Assembly: GCA_023265175.1 (NCBI GenBank)
Contig: JAHFUI010000013.1
Location: forward strand, 1-47,447
From: Acidobacteriota bacterium
Lineage (GTDB): Bacteria; Acidobacteriota; Vicinamibacteria; Vicinamibacterales; CAVVIG01
Direction: 5' to 3'
Length of the DNA stretch: 47,447 nt
Part shown: in pieces, positions 1,827-46,694 of the stretch
Numbering within the stretch: position 1 is the stretch's first letter
Layout of the letters: the number at the start of each line of letters is the position of its first letter
Notes under the pieces: generated by a model
Told to the model about the DNA's origin: nothing
Databases searched by the model: none
Seen by the model: only the letters and a program-made list of their open reading frames with translations
Program-made: the position numbers and the translations under genes

Positions 1827-3578
1827 ATGCCTCTTCGCTCGTCGAAACTGACCCCTCTTGTTTGCACGCCCTTGCTGGTTGCCTCGGCGATGGTGTTTGC
1901 CGCGGACTACTCGCTCACCGTCAACAAAGACCGCCTCGTCAACGCCATGAACGAGCCACAGAACTGGCTCCTGATGAACGGCGACTACGGCTCGACCCGG
2001 TACTCCAAGCTCACGCAGATCAATCGGGACACCGTCAAGAACCTGCGTATGGTGTGGGCGCTCGCGCTGGGCGGCATGCAGGACGTGGGACAGAACGGTC
2101 CTGAGAACGAAGTCAATCCGCTGATCGACAACGGCTTCATGTACACGAGCGACGGCTGGGGCACGGTCTACAAGATCGACATTCGCAATCCCGGCAGGGG
2201 CTCGTTCGTGTGGACCGCCGATCCCGGCGTGAAGCATGAAGGCAACGCCCCGCGCACGCGCGGCATCGCGCTCTGGGAAGACATGGTGATCGCGAACCTG
2301 CCCGACGGCCGCGTCATCGCCATCAATCGCGACAACGGCGATCTCGTGTGGGACAAGAAAATCGCCGCCAAGACCGAATTCGGCAGTCAGGAGAAATTCC
2401 TCACGGCGCCGCTGGTGGCTGAAGGCAAGGTCATCATCCAGAACGGCGCCGGCGACGCCGGCACGCGCGGCTGGGTTGCCGCGCTTGACGTCAAGACCGG
2501 CAACGAGCTGTGGCGCTGGTACGTCGTGCCGAAGCCGGGCGACCCGGGCAGCGAAACCTGGAGGGACGACCACAACGCCTGGAAGACCGGCGGCGGCGGC
2601 ATCTGGCAGACCGGATCCTACGATCCGGCCACCAAGCTCTACATCGTCGGCACGGGCAACCCGTATCCGATCTACGACCCGCAGTTCCGGCCTGGCGACA
2701 ATCTCTACACGAATTCGGCCGTGGCGCTCGACGTCGAGACCGGCAAGCTCGCCTGGCATTTCCAGTACACGCCGAACGACTCGTGGGATTTCGACGAGGT
2801 TGGCGTCCACATGCTGTACGACACCACGATCGATGGCGTGAGGCGCAAGGTCGTCGGCCACTACGGGCGCAACGGGTTCTTTTATTCCCTCGATCGGACC
2901 AACGGCAAATTCATCAAGGCCGAAAAGTACGTGAACGATCTGAACTGGACCAAAGGCATCGACCCGAAAACCGGCAGGCCGGTCGAATACAGTCCAAAGT
3001 TCGAGGTGCAGCTCTACAATCCAGAGGCGCGCGCGCTGCGCGGCGACGGCCAGAAACGCACCTGCCCGACCTGGCACGGAGGCGTTGCCCATCAGCCGCT
3101 TGCGTTCAACCCCGTGAAGAACATCGCCTACGGCGTCGGCACTGAAGGCTGCTTCACGCAGAACGGGGCCGCGGTCGGGGTCCTTTCGAAAGACGGTGGG
3201 GTCGATCCGAAAACCAGCCAGCCGCGCAAGTACAGCAGCGATCTGTATTACGGCGCGCTCACGGCGTTTGATGCCGTCAACCACAAGGTCATCGCGAAGG
3301 CCGTTACGGACATCGAGATTCGATCGGGCGCGACCGATACGGCCGGCGGCCTGGTGTTCACGGCCTTGCAGGATGGCTGGGTCGTCGCCTACAACGACGA
3401 GACGCTCGAGGAACTCTGGCGCTTCAACGTCGGCACGCCGCTCAAGGGCTCGCCGGTCACCTATGCGATCGGACCCAAGCAGTTTCTCGCGGTGCAGACC
3501 AGCGGCCGCCACCTGCATCCGGTGAACTGGGACAAACTGCAGAACTCGAGCTATCTCTTCGTGTTCGCGCTGAATTGA
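1827..3578 (+). CDS. PQQ-dependent dehydrogenase (quinoprotein), lanthanide-type signature
   Basis: The 583-residue protein has a signal peptide (about residues 1-25) and an eight-bladed quinoprotein propeller with repeated 'DxxTGxxxW' tryptophan-docking motifs. The segment 'GTGNPYPIYDPQ' matches the metal-ligand Asn region of methanol/alcohol dehydrogenases. 'DSWDFDEV' contains the catalytic Asp at residue 321 and a second Asp two residues later (323). In this family that second Asp marks lanthanide-dependent enzymes (XoxF, ExaF/PedH), whereas calcium enzymes have Ala or Ser there. There is no CxxCH, so electrons must leave through a separate cytochrome c; one is encoded at 5664-6203 on the other strand. 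No adjacent-cysteine disulphide motif was seen. The substrate is undetermined: 583 residues fits XoxF-like or short alcohol dehydrogenases. An intergenic hairpin repeat begins at its stop codon. Confidence 0.85.
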   Translation: MPLRSSKLTPLVCTPLLVASAMVFAADYSLTVNKDRLVNAMNEPQNWLLMNGDYGSTRYSKLTQINRDTVKNLRMVWALALGGMQDVGQNGPENEVNPLIDNGFMYTSDGWGTVYKIDIRNPGRGSFVWTADPGVKHEGNAPRTRGIALWEDMVIANLPDGRVIAINRDNGDLVWDKKIAAKTEFGSQEKFLTAPLVAEGKVIIQNGAGDAGTRGWVAALDVKTGNELWRWYVVPKPGDPGSETWRDDHNAWKTGGGGIWQTGSYDPATKLYIVGTGNPYPIYDPQFRPGDNLYTNSAVALDVETGKLAWHFQYTPNDSWDFDEVGVHMLYDTTIDGVRRKVVGHYGRNGFFYSLDRTNGKFIKAEKYVNDLNWTKGIDPKTGRPVEYSPKFEVQLYNPEARALRGDGQKRTCPTWHGGVAHQPLAFNPVKNIAYGVGTEGCFTQNGAAVGVLSKDGGVDPKTSQPRKYSSDLYYGALTAFDAVNHKVIAKAVTDIEIRSGATDTAGGLVFTALQDGWVVAYNDETLEELWRFNVGTPLKGSPVTYAIGPKQFLAVQTSGRHLHPVNWDKLQNSSYLFVFALN

Positions 3579-3608
3579 AGGCCGGTCCGGCTAAAGCCGG
3601 ACACTACC
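3576..3608. repeat. hairpin repeat abutting the PQQ dehydrogenase stop
   Basis: GTCCGGC (3585-3591) and GCCGGAC (3596-3602) form a perfect 7-bp stem with a TAAA loop. The unit begins at the TGA of the dehydrogenase gene. Read as protein this repeat gives KAGPAKAGHY, a string I recall at spurious protein N-termini in acidobacterial annotations; that is from memory, not a search. It may also act as a weak terminator, although no T-run follows. Confidence 0.55.
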
Positions 3609-3637
3609 GGGAGAGCCGCTCACCGATCGCGAAAGGT

Positions 3638-3664
3638 GCCTCCTCGGAGATTCTCCAAGGAGGC
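3638..3664 (+). promoter_or_regulatory. strong hairpin in the 5' leader of the NHL gene
   Basis: GCCTCCT (3638-3644) pairs with AGGAGGC (3658-3664), and GGAG pairs with CTCC inside, leaving a three-base loop. The hairpin ends five bases before the ribosome binding site GGAGG (3670-3674) of the gene at 3680. It could affect translation or be part of a repeat. Its function is unknown. Confidence 0.4.
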
Positions 3665-3679
3665 GTTCTGGAGGCCACG

Positions 3680-4855
3680 ATGAAACGCCGCAATGCCGCT
3701 TATGCCCTGGTGCTGACCGCGTGTGCCGGCTCACTCTACGTAGGCCACACAGAGTCGATCATCGCCGCGCAAGGCCGCGCCGGCGTCCAGGCGCCGATCT
3801 TCGAAGTGGATCCGCTGTGGCCCAAGCCGCTGCCGAATCACTGGGTCCTCGGATCGACGATCGGTTTGTCAACCGACGCCGGGGATCACGTCTGGATCAT
3901 TCACCGTCCGCAGACCGTCGAGGACAACTTCAAAGCCGCCACCTTCACACCGCCGATCGGCGCGTGCTGTACGCCGGCCCCTCCGGTTCTGGAATTCGAT
4001 CAGGCCGGGAACCTGATCGGCCATTGGGGCGGTCCTGGCCAGGGCTACGAATGGCCGGAATCGAATCACGGGATCACCGTCGACCACAAAGGCAATGTGT
4101 GGATTGGCGGGAACGGAGACAAGGACACACACGTCCTGAAGTTCAGCCCGAGCGGAAAGTTCCTTCTGCAGATCGGTCATCAGGGCAGGCACGGCGGAAG
4201 CAACGACGTCGAGAACTTGTGGAGGGCCGCGAAGATCTTCGTCGATCCCGCGGCGAACGAAGCCTACATTGCCGACGGTTACGGGAACCGCCGCGTCATC
4301 GTCTTCGATGCGGACACCGGGAAGTACAAACGCCATTGGGGCGCGTACGGCAACAAGCCCGACGATGCGCCGGTTGGCGCGTACGATCCTGCGGCGCCGC
4401 CGTCGAAGCAATTCAACACCGTGCACTGCGCCAACGTCTCGAAGGACGGGTTCGTCTACGTCTGCGATCGCGTGAACGATCGCGTGCAGGTATTTCGAAG
4501 AGACGGAACGTTTGTGAAGGAAGGCTTCTTCGACACGAAGACCCTTCGGTCCGGCTCGGTGTGGGACATGACGTTTTCACGAGACCCGCAGGAAACCTAC
4601 ATCTACATCGCCGACGGGGTGAACGAGAAGGTGCGCATCGTCCTGCGCAGCACGCTCGAGGTCCTTACCAGCTTCGGCGATGGGGGACGGCAGCCCGGCC
4701 AGTTCTTCGGCGTCCACAACATCACGACCGACTCGAAGGGGAACATCTACACGACCGAGACGTACAACGGCGCGCGCGTCCAGCGCTTCCTCTACAAAGG
4801 TCTGGGGTCGGTTGCGAAAGCCGAACAAGGCGTGCCGTGGCCGCGGACGCGGTAA
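3680..4855 (+). CDS. secreted NHL-repeat beta-propeller protein
   Basis: The protein has 391 residues. The start at 3680 is chosen because GGAGG precedes it by five bases and a signal peptide follows at once; an in-frame extension to 3575 would read through the upstream hairpin repeat. Repeated units such as 'GITVDHKGNVWIGG', 'GFVYVCDRVNDRVQVF' and 'NIYTTETYNGARVQRF' are NHL propeller blades, as in peptidyl-alpha-hydroxyglycine lyase-like proteins. A 'CCTPAPP' segment near residue 95 has adjacent cysteines. It follows the PQQ dehydrogenase on the same strand and precedes a cupin, so a periplasmic accessory role is plausible. No catalytic assignment is possible. Confidence 0.75.
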   Translation: MKRRNAAYALVLTACAGSLYVGHTESIIAAQGRAGVQAPIFEVDPLWPKPLPNHWVLGSTIGLSTDAGDHVWIIHRPQTVEDNFKAATFTPPIGACCTPAPPVLEFDQAGNLIGHWGGPGQGYEWPESNHGITVDHKGNVWIGGNGDKDTHVLKFSPSGKFLLQIGHQGRHGGSNDVENLWRAAKIFVDPAANEAYIADGYGNRRVIVFDADTGKYKRHWGAYGNKPDDAPVGAYDPAAPPSKQFNTVHCANVSKDGFVYVCDRVNDRVQVFRRDGTFVKEGFFDTKTLRSGSVWDMTFSRDPQETYIYIADGVNEKVRIVLRSTLEVLTSFGDGGRQPGQFFGVHNITTDSKGNIYTTETYNGARVQRFLYKGLGSVAKAEQGVPWPRTR

Positions 4856-5663: not shown

Positions 5664-6203
5664 CTAGTTCGGGAACTCACTGCAGGCCTCGACGTCCGAT
5701 CCCCAGTACTCGATGCACGTGGCGCGATCCATCGGACCTTTCCCGATGACCTTGGCAAACAGGAAGTCGACGAGCAGCTCGATCTCTCGCGGCTGGAGCG
5801 TCGCCGGCGGATCGGGCAGCTGCAGGCCGAGCCGTTTCAGGTCGGCCTGCTTCATGTCGTAGCACCGCCCGTCGCTGTAGGCGAGCCGATCGAACGCCGG
5901 CATCCCTTTGCCCGGCCGTCCACATTTGATTGCCGTAATCAGCGCGTCGCGGTTGAGCCGCGTCGTGCGAAGGTTCGCGCCGTCCGGCATCTGGCTGTCC
6001 ATCTTGCGACCGTCAGCCGCCCAGCCATGACACGCCTGACAGTCGCCCTTCTGCCGGTAGATCCGCATCCCTTCGGCGACGTTCTCCGCGTCGGGTGTCT
6101 GCACCGCCGCGCCTGACGGAACGCGCATCGGTCCAACAATCGCCACGCACAGCGCGACGGCCAGCAGCCAACCGAAGCGTCCGGAGTTTCCGCGTCTGTT
6201 CAA
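5664..6203 (-). CDS. monoheme cytochrome c, secreted
   Basis: The protein has 179 residues when started at the TTG at 6203, which has a perfect AGGAGG five bases upstream; an ATG-like extension to 6251 has no such site. A signal anchor (residues about 10-31) is followed by a single heme motif, CQACH. 'MPAFDRLAY' probably supplies the distal Met ligand. The C-terminal part has extra cysteines (KCGRP, RCYD, TCIEY, EACSE). This cytochrome type accompanies PQQ dehydrogenases and may accept electrons from the enzyme at 1827-3578, although it lies on the opposite strand. Confidence 0.8.
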   Translation of the reverse strand: MNRRGNSGRFGWLLAVALCVAIVGPMRVPSGAAVQTPDAENVAEGMRIYRQKGDCQACHGWAADGRKMDSQMPDGANLRTTRLNRDALITAIKCGRPGKGMPAFDRLAYSDGRCYDMKQADLKRLGLQLPDPPATLQPREIELLVDFLFAKVIGKGPMDRATCIEYWGSDVEACSEFPN

Positions 6204-6470: not shown

Positions 6471-6506
6471 ATGAAAGGGACGTTCGCGTTGGGGCATGAT
6501 CGATGA
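6471..6506 (+). other. possible 11-codon leader ORF before ftr
   Basis: ATG at 6471 is preceded by a very strong GGGAGGAG and reads MKGTFALGHDR before TGA at 6504-6506. It ends 25 bases before the preferred ftr start. It may be a translated leader, or the strong site may be left over from a longer gene. No amino-acid bias suggests attenuation. Confidence 0.3.
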
Positions 6507-6531
6507 GGACGGCGTGGCCGGTGGAGTGAGC

Positions 6532-7431
6532 ATGGTCCGGCGGGGCGTGAGGATTCTCGACACGTTTGCCGAGGCGTTCGACATGCGCGCCGCGCGCGTC
6601 GTGATCACAGCCCAATCGCCGGTCTGGGCGCGGACGGCGGCGCAGTCCATGACCGGCTTTGCCACCTCAGTCATCGGGTGCAAAGTCGAAGCGGGCATCG
6701 AGGCCGATCTCCTTCCCCAGGAGACGCCCGACGGGCGGCCGGGCGTGAGCGTGCTGGTGTTTGGCTTCAACGTCGAGGGACTCGGCGGCCGGCTGGTCGA
6801 CAGAGTGGGCCAGACGGTGCTCACCTGTCCGACCACGGCCTGCTTCGACGGTTTGCCTCAGGCGGCCGATCGAGTCGTCGTCGGCGGACAGCTGCGCCAT
6901 TTCGGCGACCAGTTTCAATCGAGCAAATTCCTGGACGGTCAGCGGTACTGGCGGATCCCGGTGATGGAAGGCGAGTTCCTGGTGCAGGAAGCGTTCGGGA
7001 TCCAAAAGGCCATCGGCGGCGGCAACTTCCTGATCCTGGCCAAGGATCAGGACGCCGCGCTCACGGCGGCGGAAGCGGCGGTCGAGGCCATGCGCCGGCT
7101 GCGCGGCGTCGTGCTGCCGTTTCCCGGCGGGATCGTGCGCGCCGGGAGCAAGGTGGGCGCGAAGCACTACAAGAAGATGATTGCCTCCACCAACGACGCG
7201 TACTGTCCGACGCTGCGCGGGCGGTCCGGCGTCGCCAGCGACCTGCCCGAGGACGTCAACTCCGTGCTCGAGATCGTCGTGGACGGCCTGGATCGTCCGG
7301 CAATCGAGCGCGCGCTGCGCGCCGGCATCGAGGCCGCCTGCCGTCCTGGTGTCGTCGAGATCTCGGCGGGTAACTACGGCGGCAAGCTCGGAAAACACCA
7401 CTTCCGGCTGCATGAATTGGTGAATTCGTGA
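6532..7431 (+). CDS. ftr: formylmethanofuran--tetrahydromethanopterin formyltransferase
   Basis: Ftr (FhcD in bacteria) moves the formyl group between formylmethanofuran and tetrahydromethanopterin in C1 metabolism. The product has 299 residues, close to the usual 297. The ATG at 6532 is chosen over 6496 because GGAG precedes it by five bases and the N-terminus then aligns with the family ('DTFAEAF' at residues 10-16). Other diagnostic segments are 'QTVLTCPTTACFD', 'AIGGGNFLILAKDQDAAL', 'LPFPGGIVRAGSKVGAKHYK' and 'NDAYCPTLRG'. The partner genes fhcA, fhcB and fhcC and other H4MPT genes are not in this window, so the gene is isolated here. It sits near the PQQ dehydrogenase, which fits formaldehyde or C1 oxidation but does not prove it. 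Confidence 0.93.
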   Translation: MVRRGVRILDTFAEAFDMRAARVVITAQSPVWARTAAQSMTGFATSVIGCKVEAGIEADLLPQETPDGRPGVSVLVFGFNVEGLGGRLVDRVGQTVLTCPTTACFDGLPQAADRVVVGGQLRHFGDQFQSSKFLDGQRYWRIPVMEGEFLVQEAFGIQKAIGGGNFLILAKDQDAALTAAEAAVEAMRRLRGVVLPFPGGIVRAGSKVGAKHYKKMIASTNDAYCPTLRGRSGVASDLPEDVNSVLEIVVDGLDRPAIERALRAGIEAACRPGVVEISAGNYGGKLGKHHFRLHELVNS

Positions 7432-26019: not shown

Positions 26020-26385
26020 TCACGCTGGTAGGGTGTTCCTGCGACGGCCTTTACCCGTCGGGCTCAGCCGCATGTGCTTCGCGACACGACGTGAGCCACC
26101 CCGCCGGCGCCTGATAGTGATTTGCACTTCGCTGTCCAATGCGGCTGCGATCTTCACGAGCGTTCGTAATTCGAGATTGCGCGCCCGGCCAGCTTCGATC
26201 CGGGCAATCACGGGTTGGCTGACACCGACCATTAGGGCTAACTTGCGTTGAGAGATCCCGCGGTGCTCGCGGAGCGCAACGAGGTCTTGCTCGAGCCGGA
26301 GTCTGACAAGCTCGGCGTCGACCCGTTCGGCGAGCCTCGCGTCCTTCGCCAATTCCTCGTCAATCCAACGCATCACGCGGCTCAT
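26020..26385 (-). CDS. XRE-family antitoxin (HigA-like)
   Basis: The 121-residue protein has a central helix-turn-helix of the Cro/C1 type: 'ALREHRGISQRKLALMVGVS' and 'IARIEAGRARNLELRTLVKI'. The last ~25 residues are very basic and may be poorly conserved. Its start overlaps the stop of the toxin gene by four bases (26382-26385), with toxin first and antitoxin second, as is typical of HigBA systems. It is the third toxin-antitoxin pair in the window. Confidence 0.85.
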   Translation of the reverse strand: MSRVMRWIDEELAKDARLAERVDAELVRLRLEQDLVALREHRGISQRKLALMVGVSQPVIARIEAGRARNLELRTLVKIAAALDSEVQITIRRRRGGSRRVAKHMRLSPTGKGRRRNTLPA

Positions 26386-26714
26386 GAAATCGCCTCCTTC
26401 CGCAGGCGTCGTAACCGTTCGAGCTCTCGTGCGGGAATGTCCCCGCGCTTCTTGATCAAGCCGTCGAGCAGCACGATGACGCGACCTGGCTTGAACGTGT
26501 AGAAGATACGCACTCCCGATGTCCGACCGCGGAGCTCGAACAGCCCGTCGCCGAGTGCCTTCGAGACCGGCTCGCGCAAGGTGTTGCCGCGCTCTGCGGT
26601 GAGCCTCAGCACCGCGATCGCCTCGGTCTTTGCGTCGCCGGTGGGCCCTTGCAGAAACGCCAAGACGGGTACGGCGCCGCTCGGCAGCGCGTACTCGGTG
26701 ACGGTCCAGGCCAT
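26382..26714 (-). CDS. RelE/HigB-type toxin (phage Gp49/DUF891 family)
   Basis: The 110-residue protein matches the Gp49-like HigB group: an N-terminal 'PVLAFLQGPTGDAKTEAIAV', 'REPVSKALGDGLFELR' and 'GVRIFYTFKPGRVIVLLDG', ending with 'LIKKRGDIPARELERLRRL'. These are ribosome-dependent mRNA nucleases. It precedes its antitoxin on the minus strand. An inverted repeat ten bases upstream of its ATG (26724-26743) is the likely operator. Confidence 0.87.
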   Translation of the reverse strand: MAWTVTEYALPSGAVPVLAFLQGPTGDAKTEAIAVLRLTAERGNTLREPVSKALGDGLFELRGRTSGVRIFYTFKPGRVIVLLDGLIKKRGDIPARELERLRRLRKEAIS

Positions 26715-38495: not shown

Positions 38496-38638
38496 GGCGG
38501 CCTTCCTCCTCGGCTTTCCGGCCCGAAACGTTCGCCAGTCATATCAAAAGTGACGCAAATGCAATACCGCCGGCCCAGCAGCGAGAAGCGCCCGTTCTGA
38601 GCAGGCTATTTGCAGTCTAATTCAAGTGGCAGGGTGGC

Positions 38639-38656
38639 GTGCCGGAAATCCGGCAC
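38639..38656. promoter_or_regulatory. GTGCCGG-N4-CCGGCAC palindrome upstream of groEL
   Basis: GTGCCGG, AAAT, CCGGCAC is a perfect 7-bp-arm palindrome, 35 bases before the GTG start at 38692. It shares its TGCCGG/CCGGCA arms with the site at 30880-30895 before the CBS gene. It is not a CIRCE element. It could be an operator or a short hairpin in the leader. Confidence 0.45.
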
Positions 38657-38691
38657 TTCAACGTGAACGAAACGCTGGACGGAGGTCTGCA

Positions 38692-40311
38692 GTGCCCCAT
38701 AAACGCTTGCTCGTGCAGTCCGCGGCGCGCGAAAAAATCCTGCACGGTGCGTTGGCGCTCGCCGATGCCCTGCGTGTGACGCTCGGCCCAAAATCGAAGT
38801 GCGTCCTCATCGGGAAGAAATGGGGCCGTCCCATCGTCTGCAACGATGGTGTGACGATCGCCAAGGAGTTCGAGCTCCCGGATCCTGAAGAGAATCTGGG
38901 CGCGCAAGTTATTCGACAGGCGGCCGAGCGGACTGGCGACCTCGTTGGCGACGGGACCACGACATCCACGCTTCTGGCGGCGGCGATCTTCGCCGAAGGC
39001 GTGAGAAATATCGCGGCTGGCGCCAGTGCCGTCGACCTGAAGCGCGGCCTCGATCGCGCGCTTCACGCGGTCGTTGGGCGACTGAAGGAGCTGTCGCGCC
39101 CCGTGGCCGACCACAAACAGCGGGTGCAAGTCGCGACGATCTCGGCCCACAACGAGGCCAGCATCGGCGAGACCGTCGCCGATGCGCTCGAGCGGGTCGG
39201 AGCGGAGGGCACCACGTCAGTGGAGGAAGCCAAGGGGACCGAGACGATGGTGGAAGTGGTCGAGGGCATGCGGCTCGACCGCGGCTACCTGTCGCCATAC
39301 TTCATTACGGACGCCGAGAAAATGAAGGCCGTTCTCGAGGAACCCGTCATCGTTCTGCACGAGAAGAAGATCAGCACGATGACCGATCTGCTGCCGCTGC
39401 TCGAGCAGATTGCGAAGAGCGGGAAAGCGTTGCTCGTGGTGGCTGACGACATTGAGGGCGACGCGCTAGCCACGCTGGTCGTCAACAAAGTGCGGGGGGT
39501 GCTGCCCTGTGTCGCCGTGAAGGCGCCAGGCTACGGTGATCGACGCCGCGCGACGCTCGAAGATATGGCGATTCTCACCGGCGGGCGTCTCATCGCCGAG
39601 GAGCTCGGCATCAAGCTCGCCAACGTGACGCTCACCGATCTCGGTCAGGCCAAGCGCGTCGTGGTGGACAAGGAGTCCACCACGATTGTGGGCGGCGCGG
39701 GCACGAAGGACGCCATCAACGGACGCGCGAATGAAATCCGCACGCAGATCAAGGCCGCCACCTCCGACTACGACCGCGAAAAGCTCGAGGAGCGGCTTGC
39801 GAAGCTGACCGGCGGCGTTGCGGTCATCCGCGTGGGCGCGCCATCGGAAGCCGAGTTGAAGAACCGCAGGGAGGCGTTCGAGGACGCCATCAGTGCGACG
39901 AAGGCGGCGATGGCGGAGGGGATTGTGCCCGGCGGTGGGCTCGCGCTGCTGCGAGCGATTGACAGCGTCGAGCAGGAGGCGTCCGCCTGCACCGGCGATG
40001 AGCGGACCGGCGCGCTGATGCTCAAGCGCGCGCTGGAGGCGCCGACGCGCCAGATTGCGGAGAACTCCGGCGTCGACGGCGGGGTGGTCGTGGATCGCAT
40101 GCGGACTGGGACTGGCGCGTACGGGTTCGACGCGGGTCGTGGCTGTTATGTCGATCTCATCGATGCGGGCATCATCGATCCAACCAAGGTCGTACGGATC
40201 GCGCTCGAGAACGCGGTCTCGGTGGCCGGCGTGCTGCTGTTGACCGAGGCGACGTTGACTGACGTGCCCGAGCCCAAAGCAGAGACGCCAGAACCAGCGG
40301 AGATCGGTTAA
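38692..40311 (+). CDS. groEL: divergent GroEL-type chaperonin
   Basis: The GTG start at 38692 (GGAGG six bases upstream) gives 539 residues. The ATPase landmarks are kept: '[17 protein letters not shown]', 'DGVTIAKE', '[11 protein letters not shown]', '[20 protein letters not shown]' and '[11 protein letters not shown]'. Differences from housekeeping GroEL include Ser-Lys-Cys where GPKGRNV is usual and a C-terminus ending 'PEPAEIG' instead of the Gly-Gly-Met tail. No groES gene is adjacent. It is likely a secondary, stress-associated chaperonin paralogue. Confidence 0.9.
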
Positions 40312-44051: not shown

Positions 44052-44296
44052 TTAACAGCCCGTGGTGAAAGTCTGGCAGCATTCGGGGCCCCTCAACGCG
44101 GCAGCCGCGTTGGGGACCCCGTTCGACGGGCGATGCATCCCCGCTGGCTGCGTTGCTCCTCCGTCAAATACTCCCGGTATTCTCCGTCGTCGCGCTTTGC
44201 CAGCCGGGGTTCCCGGCGCGGCAGCCGCGCTGGGGTGGTCGACGGGGCGCCTCGCCCGTCTCGGTGCGACGCCAGACTTTCACCACGGGCTGTTAA
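44052..44296. repeat. 245-bp MITE-like element, TTAA-ended, copy B
   Basis: The terminal 26 bases are perfect inverted repeats, from TTAACAGCCCGTGG at 44052 to CCACGGGCTGTTAA ending at 44296. The core matches 137-295 in reverse complement, with two extra GC-rich hairpin segments (about 44075-44125 and 44200-44245). It fills nearly the whole gap between the Rieske and cytochrome b genes; its right TTAA contains the Rieske stop codon. It encodes no transposase, so movement would need an enzyme from elsewhere. Confidence 0.8.
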
Positions 44297-44787
44297 GCGC
44301 GGAGGCGAAACTCTGGGTTCACGGGCTGATCCAGGTCGACCACGAGCTGTGCGTGCGGCGAGAGGCTGAGCGCGTACCACGCCAGCGCCTTGGTGGCCGG
44401 TCCTTGGACGACCTGACCGTTCTCGTCGAACTGACTTCCGTGACAGGGGCACTCGAACCCGGGTCCGCCGCGTTTCACATTGCAACCGAGGTGCGTGCAC
44501 ACCGACGAGATGGAGTAGAAGCCGTCGGCCCCATTGAACACGTACAGTCGCCGGTCGGGCAGGAAGGTCACGGCGCCTGGCGGGAAAACCGTCGGCGGCC
44601 CGATGCCGAACCGGCGCGATGGCTCGTACAGCACGTTCGGCACCAGGAACCGAACGGTGGCTGCGAGGAAGCCCGCGGTCGCTGCGCCGATGCCGATGCA
44701 CCCGATGACGAACATGCTGCGCCGCACGCGATCGGGGCGTTCCGGTTTCTCGGCCACGCTCCCAGGCGGAACGCGATCGTTCGTCAT
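44293..44787 (-). CDS. Rieske 2Fe-2S subunit of a quinol oxidoreductase
   Basis: The 164-residue protein has an N-terminal membrane helix with a twin-Arg-like start ('RRSMFVIGCIGIGAATAGF'). The cluster motifs are 'CTHLGC' and 'CPCHGS', with the two Cys and two His ligands and the disulphide Cys in place. It belongs to a bc-type quinol oxidoreductase with the cytochrome b downstream. Its stop codon falls in the end of an inserted palindromic element. Its start overlaps the upstream oxidoreductase gene by four bases. Confidence 0.93.
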   Translation of the reverse strand: MTNDRVPPGSVAEKPERPDRVRRSMFVIGCIGIGAATAGFLAATVRFLVPNVLYEPSRRFGIGPPTVFPPGAVTFLPDRRLYVFNGADGFYSISSVCTHLGCNVKRGGPGFECPCHGSQFDENGQVVQGPATKALAWYALSLSPHAQLVVDLDQPVNPEFRLRA

Positions 44788-46694
44788 GCCCGCCCCTCGT
44801 CCATTGATTCGTGATACAACCCGAGCGCGGTCTGCGGCGACTCGTCGATTTCAAGGGCTTCCATCGTGATGGCTCCCGTGGGACATCGTTCGGCGCACAG
44901 CCCGCACCGAATGCACCGCGCTTCGTCTTTGACGATGGCGGCCACGTCGGTTCCGGCGCCGATGGCCTCACGCACGGCGTCGATCGCCGCCGATGGGCGC
45001 AGGCGTGACGCCGGCACGAGCGCGAGGCAGGCTTCGGGACAGATCTCAACGCACCCGCTGCAGAGGATGCAGCGCTCCGAGTCGAAAATCGTCTCGACGT
45101 TGCACCACAGGCAGCGCGACCCCTCCAGGCGCGCCTGTTCCTCGCTGTAGCCCACCTCCACTTCGCGAAAGCCGGTGCGCCGCGTGACCGGCAAGGTCGG
45201 AACGGTCTGGCGTGGGATCCGATCGTATCGATCGCCCGCGCGGTTCAATGCGATGGGCCGGAACCGCGCGTGTGCGCGGGGCACGGTCCCGCCGCCGAGC
45301 GATTCATGAATCGCGAGCGCCGCGCGCTTGCCGTCGGCCTCCGCCTCGATCACGATGCGCGGCCCGAACGCCAGATCGCCGCCGCAGAACACCCCCTGCA
45401 TCGTCGTGGCGAGCGTGCGGGCGCTGACGGCCACCAAACCGCGCGGAGTGATCTCAATCTCGGAATCCGCCGCCAGACAGCTCGTGTCCGGCTGCTGGCC
45501 CACGGCCAGGATGATCGTGTCGGCGTCGACACGCCGCTCGGTGTTCGGCGTGAACGACGGATTGAAACGACCGTTCGCGTCGACGAGCGCCGCCACGTCG
45601 AGCGTCTCCAGTCCAACGACCCGTCCCTCCCGGCCGAGGATCGCTTTCGGGCCCACGCCCGGCAGAAGCGTGATGCCCTCTTCCTCGGCTTCGCGCACCT
45701 CGTCGGGATGTGCCGGCATCTGCGCGCGCGATTCGAGCGAGACCAGTTGCACGTGCCGTGCGCCGAGGCGCAGGGCTGTTCGCGCAGCGTCGATGAACGC
45801 ATTGTCGTAGCCCCACGTCTGCAGCAACTGCTCGGCGCCTCCGGACAATTCGGGGCGTTCTTCTGCAGCCGCGTACCGGAGGGCCGTCCGCGCAACGTCG
45901 ATGGCGACATTACCGCCGCCGATGACGATCACGCGCTCGCCAAGCGCGACCCGGTAGCCCAGGTTCGCGTTCAGCAGAAAGTCGACGCCGTTGATGACGC
46001 CGTCGAGATCGTGGCCGGGAATATTCAGGTCGCGGCCGCGCGACGCGCCGAGGGCGAGAAAGACCGCGGCGTACCCGTTGCGGCGCAGATCGCCGACCGT
46101 GAAGTCGCGGCCGAGCCGCCACTCCAACTTCAGCTCCACACCGAGCGACAGGATTTGATCGACCTCGGCGCGAATCAGATCGCGCGACAGCCGGTACTCG
46201 GGCACGCCCTGATAGAGCATGCCGCCGACGACCGGCGCGGCGTCGAACAGCGTGACGCGGTAGCCAACGAGCGCCAGATCGTGCGCGCAACTCAGTCCGG
46301 CCGGACCGGCGCCGATGACGGCGACGCGGGCGGCACCGCCCGCGCCCGTGACGGCCAGCTGCAGCGGCGTCAACGGCGCCGGTTGGGCGCTCAGCGTGTT
46401 TTCGACGCCGTGCCGCTCGGTCAGCGTCCGCTTGAGCGCGCGAATCGAGATGGGCTGATCGATGACGCCGCGGCGACACTTCAACTCGCAGGGATGCGCG
46501 CAGATGCGACCGCAGATCGATGCGAGCGGGTTCGGGGCGCGGGCAATCCGATATCCGCGCGCGGTATCCCCTTCGGCGACGGCGCGAACGTACCCGCCGG
46601 CGTTGGTGCGCACCGGGCAGGCGGTGCGGCAGGGAAGCAGATTGAGGAAGTACTGGAAGTCGGGAACGACCGCCGAGTACTCTCGCGCCGCCAT
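44784..46694 (-). CDS. FAD-dependent NAD(P) oxidoreductase with Fe-S domains
   Basis: The 636-residue protein resembles the glutamate synthase small subunit/dihydropyrimidine dehydrogenase class. The N-terminal domain has cluster cysteines ('CRTACPVRTNAGGYV', 'CGRICAHPCELKCRRG'). A FAD-binding Rossmann site 'VAVIGAGPAGLSCAHDLAL' and an NAD(P) site 'VIVIGGGNVAIDVARTAL' follow. A C-terminal two-cluster ferredoxin domain contains 'CILCSGCVEICPEAC' and 'CIRCGLCAERCPTG'. As first membrane-complex gene before the Rieske subunit, it could feed NAD(P)H or ferredoxin electrons to the cytochrome b module. That coupling is inferred from the operon only. Confidence 0.88.
   Translation of the reverse strand: MAAREYSAVVPDFQYFLNLLPCRTACPVRTNAGGYVRAVAEGDTARGYRIARAPNPLASICGRICAHPCELKCRRGVIDQPISIRALKRTLTERHGVENTLSAQPAPLTPLQLAVTGAGGAARVAVIGAGPAGLSCAHDLALVGYRVTLFDAAPVVGGMLYQGVPEYRLSRDLIRAEVDQILSLGVELKLEWRLGRDFTVGDLRRNGYAAVFLALGASRGRDLNIPGHDLDGVINGVDFLLNANLGYRVALGERVIVIGGGNVAIDVARTALRYAAAEERPELSGGAEQLLQTWGYDNAFIDAARTALRLGARHVQLVSLESRAQMPAHPDEVREAEEEGITLLPGVGPKAILGREGRVVGLETLDVAALVDANGRFNPSFTPNTERRVDADTIILAVGQQPDTSCLAADSEIEITPRGLVAVSARTLATTMQGVFCGGDLAFGPRIVIEAEADGKRAALAIHESLGGGTVPRAHARFRPIALNRAGDRYDRIPRQTVPTLPVTRRTGFREVEVGYSEEQARLEGSRCLWCNVETIFDSERCILCSGCVEICPEACLALVPASRLRPSAAIDAVREAIGAGTDVAAIVKDEARCIRCGLCAERCPTGAITMEALEIDESPQTALGLYHESMDEGRA

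Follow-up and report, generated by a model that had tools for sequence, protein, structure and literature searches.

A selenocysteine-containing FmdB has been described before, in a planctomycete: strain P2 (Rhodopirellula) encodes a Sec-containing FmdB within an fmdD-fmdB-fmdA-fmdC operon, and a Lake Washington fosmid carries an operon of the same order (PMC4807772). In FwdB, the metal is bound by the sulfur or selenium of a Cys/Sec ligand residue (PMC11656701). FwdB uses either Sec or Cys, whereas FhcB, which is devoid of the metal cofactor, serves as a scaffold (PMC10100899); bacterial FwdB proteins are known as well and have been attributed to transfer from Archaea (PMC10100899). An earlier survey recorded fwdD in Archaea, Synergistetes, Firmicutes and NC10, with Acidobacteria unmentioned (PMC5020050), and we found no report of a Sec-type formylmethanofuran dehydrogenase (FMDH) in Acidobacteria in the open-licence literature.

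The window, i.e. the whole stretch of DNA that was analysed, is an entire contig of 47,447 b (C203) from a 4.92-Mb MAG (labelled G000; 308 contigs, 96.8% complete, contamination estimate 3.67%). The closest kin of its host are Acidobacteria group 6 MAGs, in line with the probable acidobacterium proposed by an earlier, sequence-only reading of this DNA; several of these kin would come from the Angelo grassland project (PMC6784897), judging by their similar sample names. The gene under study and its presumed key residue are located as follows:

6532..7431, + strand: ftr/fhcD, formylmethanofuran--tetrahydromethanopterin formyltransferase, 299 aa, with TIGR03119, FTR and FTR_C matches
7270..7272, + strand: codon of Glu247 of Ftr, aligned to Glu245 of Methanopyrus kandleri Ftr (1ftr alignment)

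The open reading frame spans 6496-7431 (+) and ends on a TGA stop, with ATG 6532 as the likely start and the in-frame ATG 6496 as the alternative. Its product scores 430.8 bits against the TIGR03119 one_C_fhcD profile (cut-off 292.6) and 435 bits against NF002554 across its full length; both lobes, Pfam FTR and FTR_C, are matched over their full length, and the protein aligns end to end with PDB entries 6s6y_D, 1ftr, 1m5s and 1m5h, Methylorubrum FhcD (6s6y_D) being the nearest solved structure. The gene had been described as a full-length, motif-complete Ftr/FhcD, which these matches confirm. Glu247, invariant across the family alignment, is the counterpart of Glu245 of the M. kandleri enzyme, which we take to be the proposed catalytic residue, and the structural alignment gives no sign of active-site loss. 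As ftr is present in a single copy in the whole 4.92-Mb assembly, we rejected the possibility that the window harbors a redundant copy. Among 40 genomes (the MAG of the window and its relatives), ftr was found in 4 others, all from the same family, and a phylum-wide draw contained it in 17 of 396 genomes. In the tree, Ftr of G000 groups with those of the relatives G010, G023, G057 and G197; a horizontal import by this organism alone is thus unsupported. Two peculiarities of other Ftr sequences were observed in passing. The G010 protein (L015/L020, contig C265) lacks ~34 internal residues relative to aligned relatives and gives two HMMER matches, which could be due to an assembly collapse or to a damaged gene, and G050 and G088 (family f28; L195, L196) each encode a second, highly divergent Ftr that the tree places far from the remaining Ftrs.

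The flanking genes of ftr that were tested on C203 include no recognisable fhc partner and no further gene of the H4MPT or methanofuran pathways, as had been noted before. Other features of the window include a PemK/MazF-type toxin with a small partner ORF upstream (416-1002), a Gp49/HTH pair resembling a toxin-antitoxin system (26020-26714), a 561-aa Cpn60/GroEL-family protein (38626-40311), possibly an additional, divergent chaperonin, in the vicinity of P-type ATPases, universal-stress-like ORFs and a GNAT-acyl-CoA ligase, and, at the contig end, a Rieske protein adjoining a GltD-like FAD/4Fe-4S oxidoreductase (44293-46694, - strand), a possible redox module.

Partner genes are found on other contigs of the same MAG, fwdD-fwdB-fwdA-fwdC on C137, in a cluster without ftr/fhcD, and fae-mtdB on C90. 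The C1 oxidation pathway is therefore scattered over C203, C137 and C90, as the sequence-only reading had envisaged; the word orphan that it used, in the sense of an enzyme without partners, does not hold, and no complete fhc operon with its own fhcD was found elsewhere. FwdA scores 688 bits (TIGR03121), FwdB 496 bits with its in-frame UGA read through (TIGR03129) and FwdC 259 bits (TIGR03122), and the first gene of the cluster is:

C137, 11835-11524: FwdD-like, Molydop_binding 43.7 bits (cut-off 26.8), NF042908 77.7 bits, below the cut-off of 175

In relatives, the C1 genes are gathered in one or few clusters. G057 and G197 have a contiguous ftr-fwdD-fwdB(UGA)-fwdA-fwdC, G012 and AA50 have fwdA-fwdC-ftr-mfnD, followed in AA50 by mfnF, and G010 has fae-mtdB, two genes, then fwdD-fwdB; in G023 and JABFSA01, ftr is separate from the fwd genes. 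Given this varying order, the separation of ftr from its partners has occurred on more than one occasion, and the window is one instance. Another arrangement, in L057 (~13 kb), reads fwdA-fwdC-ftr-mfnD-mfnF-tRNA-Sec-selA-selB-selD(with UGA)-mch-rimK-like; note that its contig is titled Acidimicrobiia and that its Ftr falls in the acidobacterial clade, close to that of the window. No FwdF/FwdG or other dedicated electron-transfer subunit was recognised beside the fwd genes at the loci read.

We consider it probable that the gene of the window is the sole Ftr/FhcD of a dispersed H4MPT/methanofuran pathway, whose partner is a UGA-selenocysteine FMDH encoded on the other contig; most likely, formyl groups carried by H4MPT are passed by Ftr to a dehydrogenase that depends on selenocysteine and produces CO2. 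In such a pathway, Fae would bind formaldehyde to H4MPT, MtdB would oxidise the H4MPT-bound C1 unit, and Mch (mch was not found in G000) would open the ring to give formyl-H4MPT, from which Ftr would transfer the formyl group to methanofuran. FwdA would then release formate from formyl-methanofuran by hydrolysis, within an internal cavity, and FwdBD, assuming that the subunits assemble into a complex, would convert this formate to CO2, the electrons leaving through the FeS cluster of FwdB to a presumed acceptor. The steps after Ftr would thus be FMDH chemistry, which follows from homology with the archaeal FMDH, and the fact that fae and mtdB are present suggests an oxidative direction.

This proposal has to be weighed against the condition of the pathway in G000. 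Although fae, mtdB and ftr are present, the full intact fae-mtdB-mch-ftr-mptG set was not encountered: mch, present in 3 of the 4 ftr-bearing relatives, was not found in G000 with two HMMs, nor were its rimK-like neighbour and an mfnF of the family type in this 96.8% complete MAG. The beta-RFAP synthase gene mptG is needed for H4MPT synthesis, and G000 has only frame-broken C-terminal fragments of it, mid-contig and with no Ns around:

C252 (L051), 3248-3932: mptG fragment 1, residues ~136-174 and 174-338, in different frames
C252 (L051), 5756-6037: mptG fragment 2, second broken C-terminal copy

The fragments share ~78-80% protein identity with an intact relative and 87% DNA identity with each other, and are the remnants of a pathway gene in decay, perhaps after a tandem duplication. 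For methanofuran synthesis, the only genes found lie on C14, which encodes MfnB and a fused MfnF-MfnE protein; the fusion of MfnF to an MfnE-like kinase (L050, 2656-4605, - strand) is convergent with mfnB. Because C14 has the most atypical composition of the contigs compared, its genes may be foreign to the host organism, and we held them back as proof of methanofuran synthesis in G000.

The C1 pathway of this MAG may accordingly be incomplete or decaying, even though sister genomes have most of its components. In a tentative second reading, possible though short of probable, the selenocysteine FMDH is ancestral and mch and H4MPT synthesis (mptG) were lately lost, so that Ftr, Fwd and Fae are remnants and the UGA may have turned into a plain stop. 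The two mptG remnants, the genes not found and the displacement of ftr from a clustered context speak for such a relic. However, dN/dS against relatives (0.11-0.18 for Ftr, 0.11-0.17 for FwdB) is like that of the intact relatives and the sole internal stop of fwdB is the shared UGA, so any pathway loss would be recent. Moreover, as mfnD-mfnF-sel-mch-rimK form one contiguous block in L057, most of the missing genes could be accounted for by one fragment that escaped assembly. The missing genes would reflect either such an assembly gap together with a recent break of mptG, or genuine decay.

A canonical Fhc complex, in which Ftr and FhcABC hydrolyse the formyl group to formate and FhcB is a mere scaffold, could be envisaged since the closest solved relative of Ftr is Methylorubrum FhcD and since this type exists in some acidobacteria, including the class-mate L187 (G249), which, like L189/L190/L194, has a degenerate hydrolytic-type FhcB whose ligand site is occupied by Ser, Val, Gly or Glu. 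We nevertheless regard it as improbable. The reading frame of FwdB on C137 is broken once, by the TGA in SHTSL[TGA]HGPT, a codon that corresponds in the alignment to Cys118 of the tungsten enzyme of M. wolfei (5t5i) and, in 9sfi (NTASVXHGPS), to a residue given as X, presumably selenocysteine. Best PDB matches of FwdB are the archaeal FMDH B subunits 9sfi, 8rja and 5t5i, with E-values of ~1e-110 to 1e-105, whereas the bacterial FhcB 6s6y_B gives only 5e-13, ~90 orders of magnitude weaker. G000 FwdB has the four N-terminal 4Fe4S cysteines and a His aligned with His290, and instead of FhcB-type features (no metal ligand, no FwdD), the genome shows the ligand-site UGA and FwdD. The same association is seen across the loci compared, both FwdB and degenerate FhcB kinds being present in the phylum: fwdD, the four FeS cysteines and His290 accompany a Sec/Cys ligand in all 10 loci having one, while no fwdD was found at the 19 loci with a different residue at this site of the B subunit (degenerate FhcB). 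With FwdD, the FeS cysteines and a UGA exactly where the Cys/Sec ligand of tungsten/molybdenum lies, the partner complex is, as judged from its genes, an archaeal-type formylmethanofuran dehydrogenase rather than the hydrolytic Fhc known from methylotrophic proteobacteria.

That the Fwd genes of C137 belong to a different organism than the window, through a binning artefact, might be suspected from the contamination estimate and from the outlying composition of C14, but is unlikely: the compositions of C137 and C90 lie within the sampled range (89th and 35th percentile, respectively), and FwdB of G000 groups with those of G010, G023, G057 and G197, the same relatives as for Ftr.

We then considered how the UGA of fwdB is read. 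Taken alone, it makes fwdB a gene with an internal stop, and neither selA/B/D nor tRNA-Sec was found in the 1.44 of 4.92 Mb of G000 that were sampled (29%); weak matches at L231 and L200 (SelB query) and L283 (SelD query), with 26-30% identity, were rejected as being apparently other GTPases or AIR-synthase-like proteins. A nonsense mutation or sequencing error leaving a dead complex is nonetheless very improbable, since TGA occupies the identical fwdB codon in six acidobacterial loci (G000, G010, G023, G050, G057 and G197) from at least three families, at the archaeal Cys/Sec site, and since the low gene-wide dN/dS is accompanied by codon-level constraint past the UGA. Cys is found at this position in three more acidobacteria and in a Hadesarchaeon, and in the FwdB/FhcB tree the UGA sequences, all six, cluster in a single supported clade (100/100). 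A genome-wide reassignment of UGA was rejected, TGA being the commonest ordinary stop in G000 (381 of 738 likely genes, ftr included).

Downstream of the UGA, at 18 nt, all six loci (6/6) can form a SECIS-like hairpin of 7 bp with an AGUU loop; two of the seven pairs vary and pairing is kept in both, and in the three Cys homologues the hairpin is not the predicted fold. Against a SECIS role, its folding energy is only mildly better than that of shuffled sequences (z of -0.5 to -1.8), no Rfam SECIS family matches the region, and the hairpin overlaps conserved coding sequence. Over the 14 codons past the UGA, synonymous identity reaches 0.85 compared with 0.63 gene-wide, ranking 2 among 431 overlapping windows. 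A complete selenocysteine locus (tRNA-Sec, selA, selB, selD) lies between methanofuran-synthesis genes and mch in L057 (5313-9786), where SelD has its own in-frame UGA at an ASG[UGA]AAK motif; the fwdB of L057 is off the contig, UGA-fwdB and sel genes having so far never been met in one genome. We infer from these sequence patterns that the UGA of G000 fwdB would be read as selenocysteine, a ligand of tungsten or molybdenum.

A PQQ dehydrogenase with a lanthanide signature had also been pointed out near ftr:

1827-3578: PQQ dehydrogenase, about 3 kb from ftr

The signature is real, with an extra lanthanide-type Asp in TPNDSWDFDEV, as in the XoxF lanthanide methanol dehydrogenase. Unlike XoxF, the protein scores below the NCBIfam methanol/ethanol-family cut-off (419.6 against 480 bits), lacks the vicinal Cys-Cys pair and is unlinked to ftr in relatives, so that it does not qualify as XoxF. 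That Ftr works with this enzyme, or is reused in another formyl transfer, is hardly credible despite the ~3 kb distance and the lanthanide-type Asp, given that PQQ genes abound in G000 (46 matching stretches, 7 above the cut-off), that the PQQ, NHL, cupin and cytochrome genes of the window are absent from every acidobacterial ftr locus examined, and that the partner set exists elsewhere. We rejected a functional link as weak, and the closeness of the two genes is probably a coincidence.

If the selenocysteine reading of fwdB is correct, C1 oxidation in abundant uncultured soil Acidobacteria needs selenium together with tungsten or molybdenum; CO2 would be released instead of free formate, and the low-potential electrons of formyl-methanofuran could be conserved. 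We are evenly divided on the broader proposal that soil Acidobacteria oxidise formaldehyde carbon straight to CO2 via a selenocysteine-dependent archaeal-type FMDH and that in some the sel genes travel with the C1 cluster, so that the trait may be kept mainly for FMDH. As annotation pipelines split fwdB at the UGA, the pathway may be counted in MAG surveys as missing or as plain Fhc. Since one subunit occurs with selenocysteine, with cysteine and without a ligand, Acidobacteria offer a natural series from redox enzyme to scaffold.

Like planctomycete P2, G000 has a bacterial FMDH gene set with subunit D first and Sec (UGA in G000) in FmdB; P2 belongs to a different phylum and reportedly retains a Sec as well as a Cys form, whereas G000 has one FwdB on the contigs read, and, unlike the P2 operon, the acidobacterial relative L057 has sel genes inside its C1 cluster. 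The archaeal tungsten FwdABCD (5t5i, 9sfi) shares the FwdA amidohydrolase, the FeS cysteines and Cys/Sec site of FwdB, FwdC and FwdD, but in G000 no FwdF/FwdG is recognised nearby and the bacterial host has Fae/MtdB, suggesting the oxidative direction. FhcD of the Methylorubrum FhcABCD complex (6s6y) is homologous to the Ftr of the window over its full length; the FhcB of this complex is without W/Mo (PMC10100899) and FwdD is absent from it, whereas the G000 counterparts are of the dehydrogenase type.
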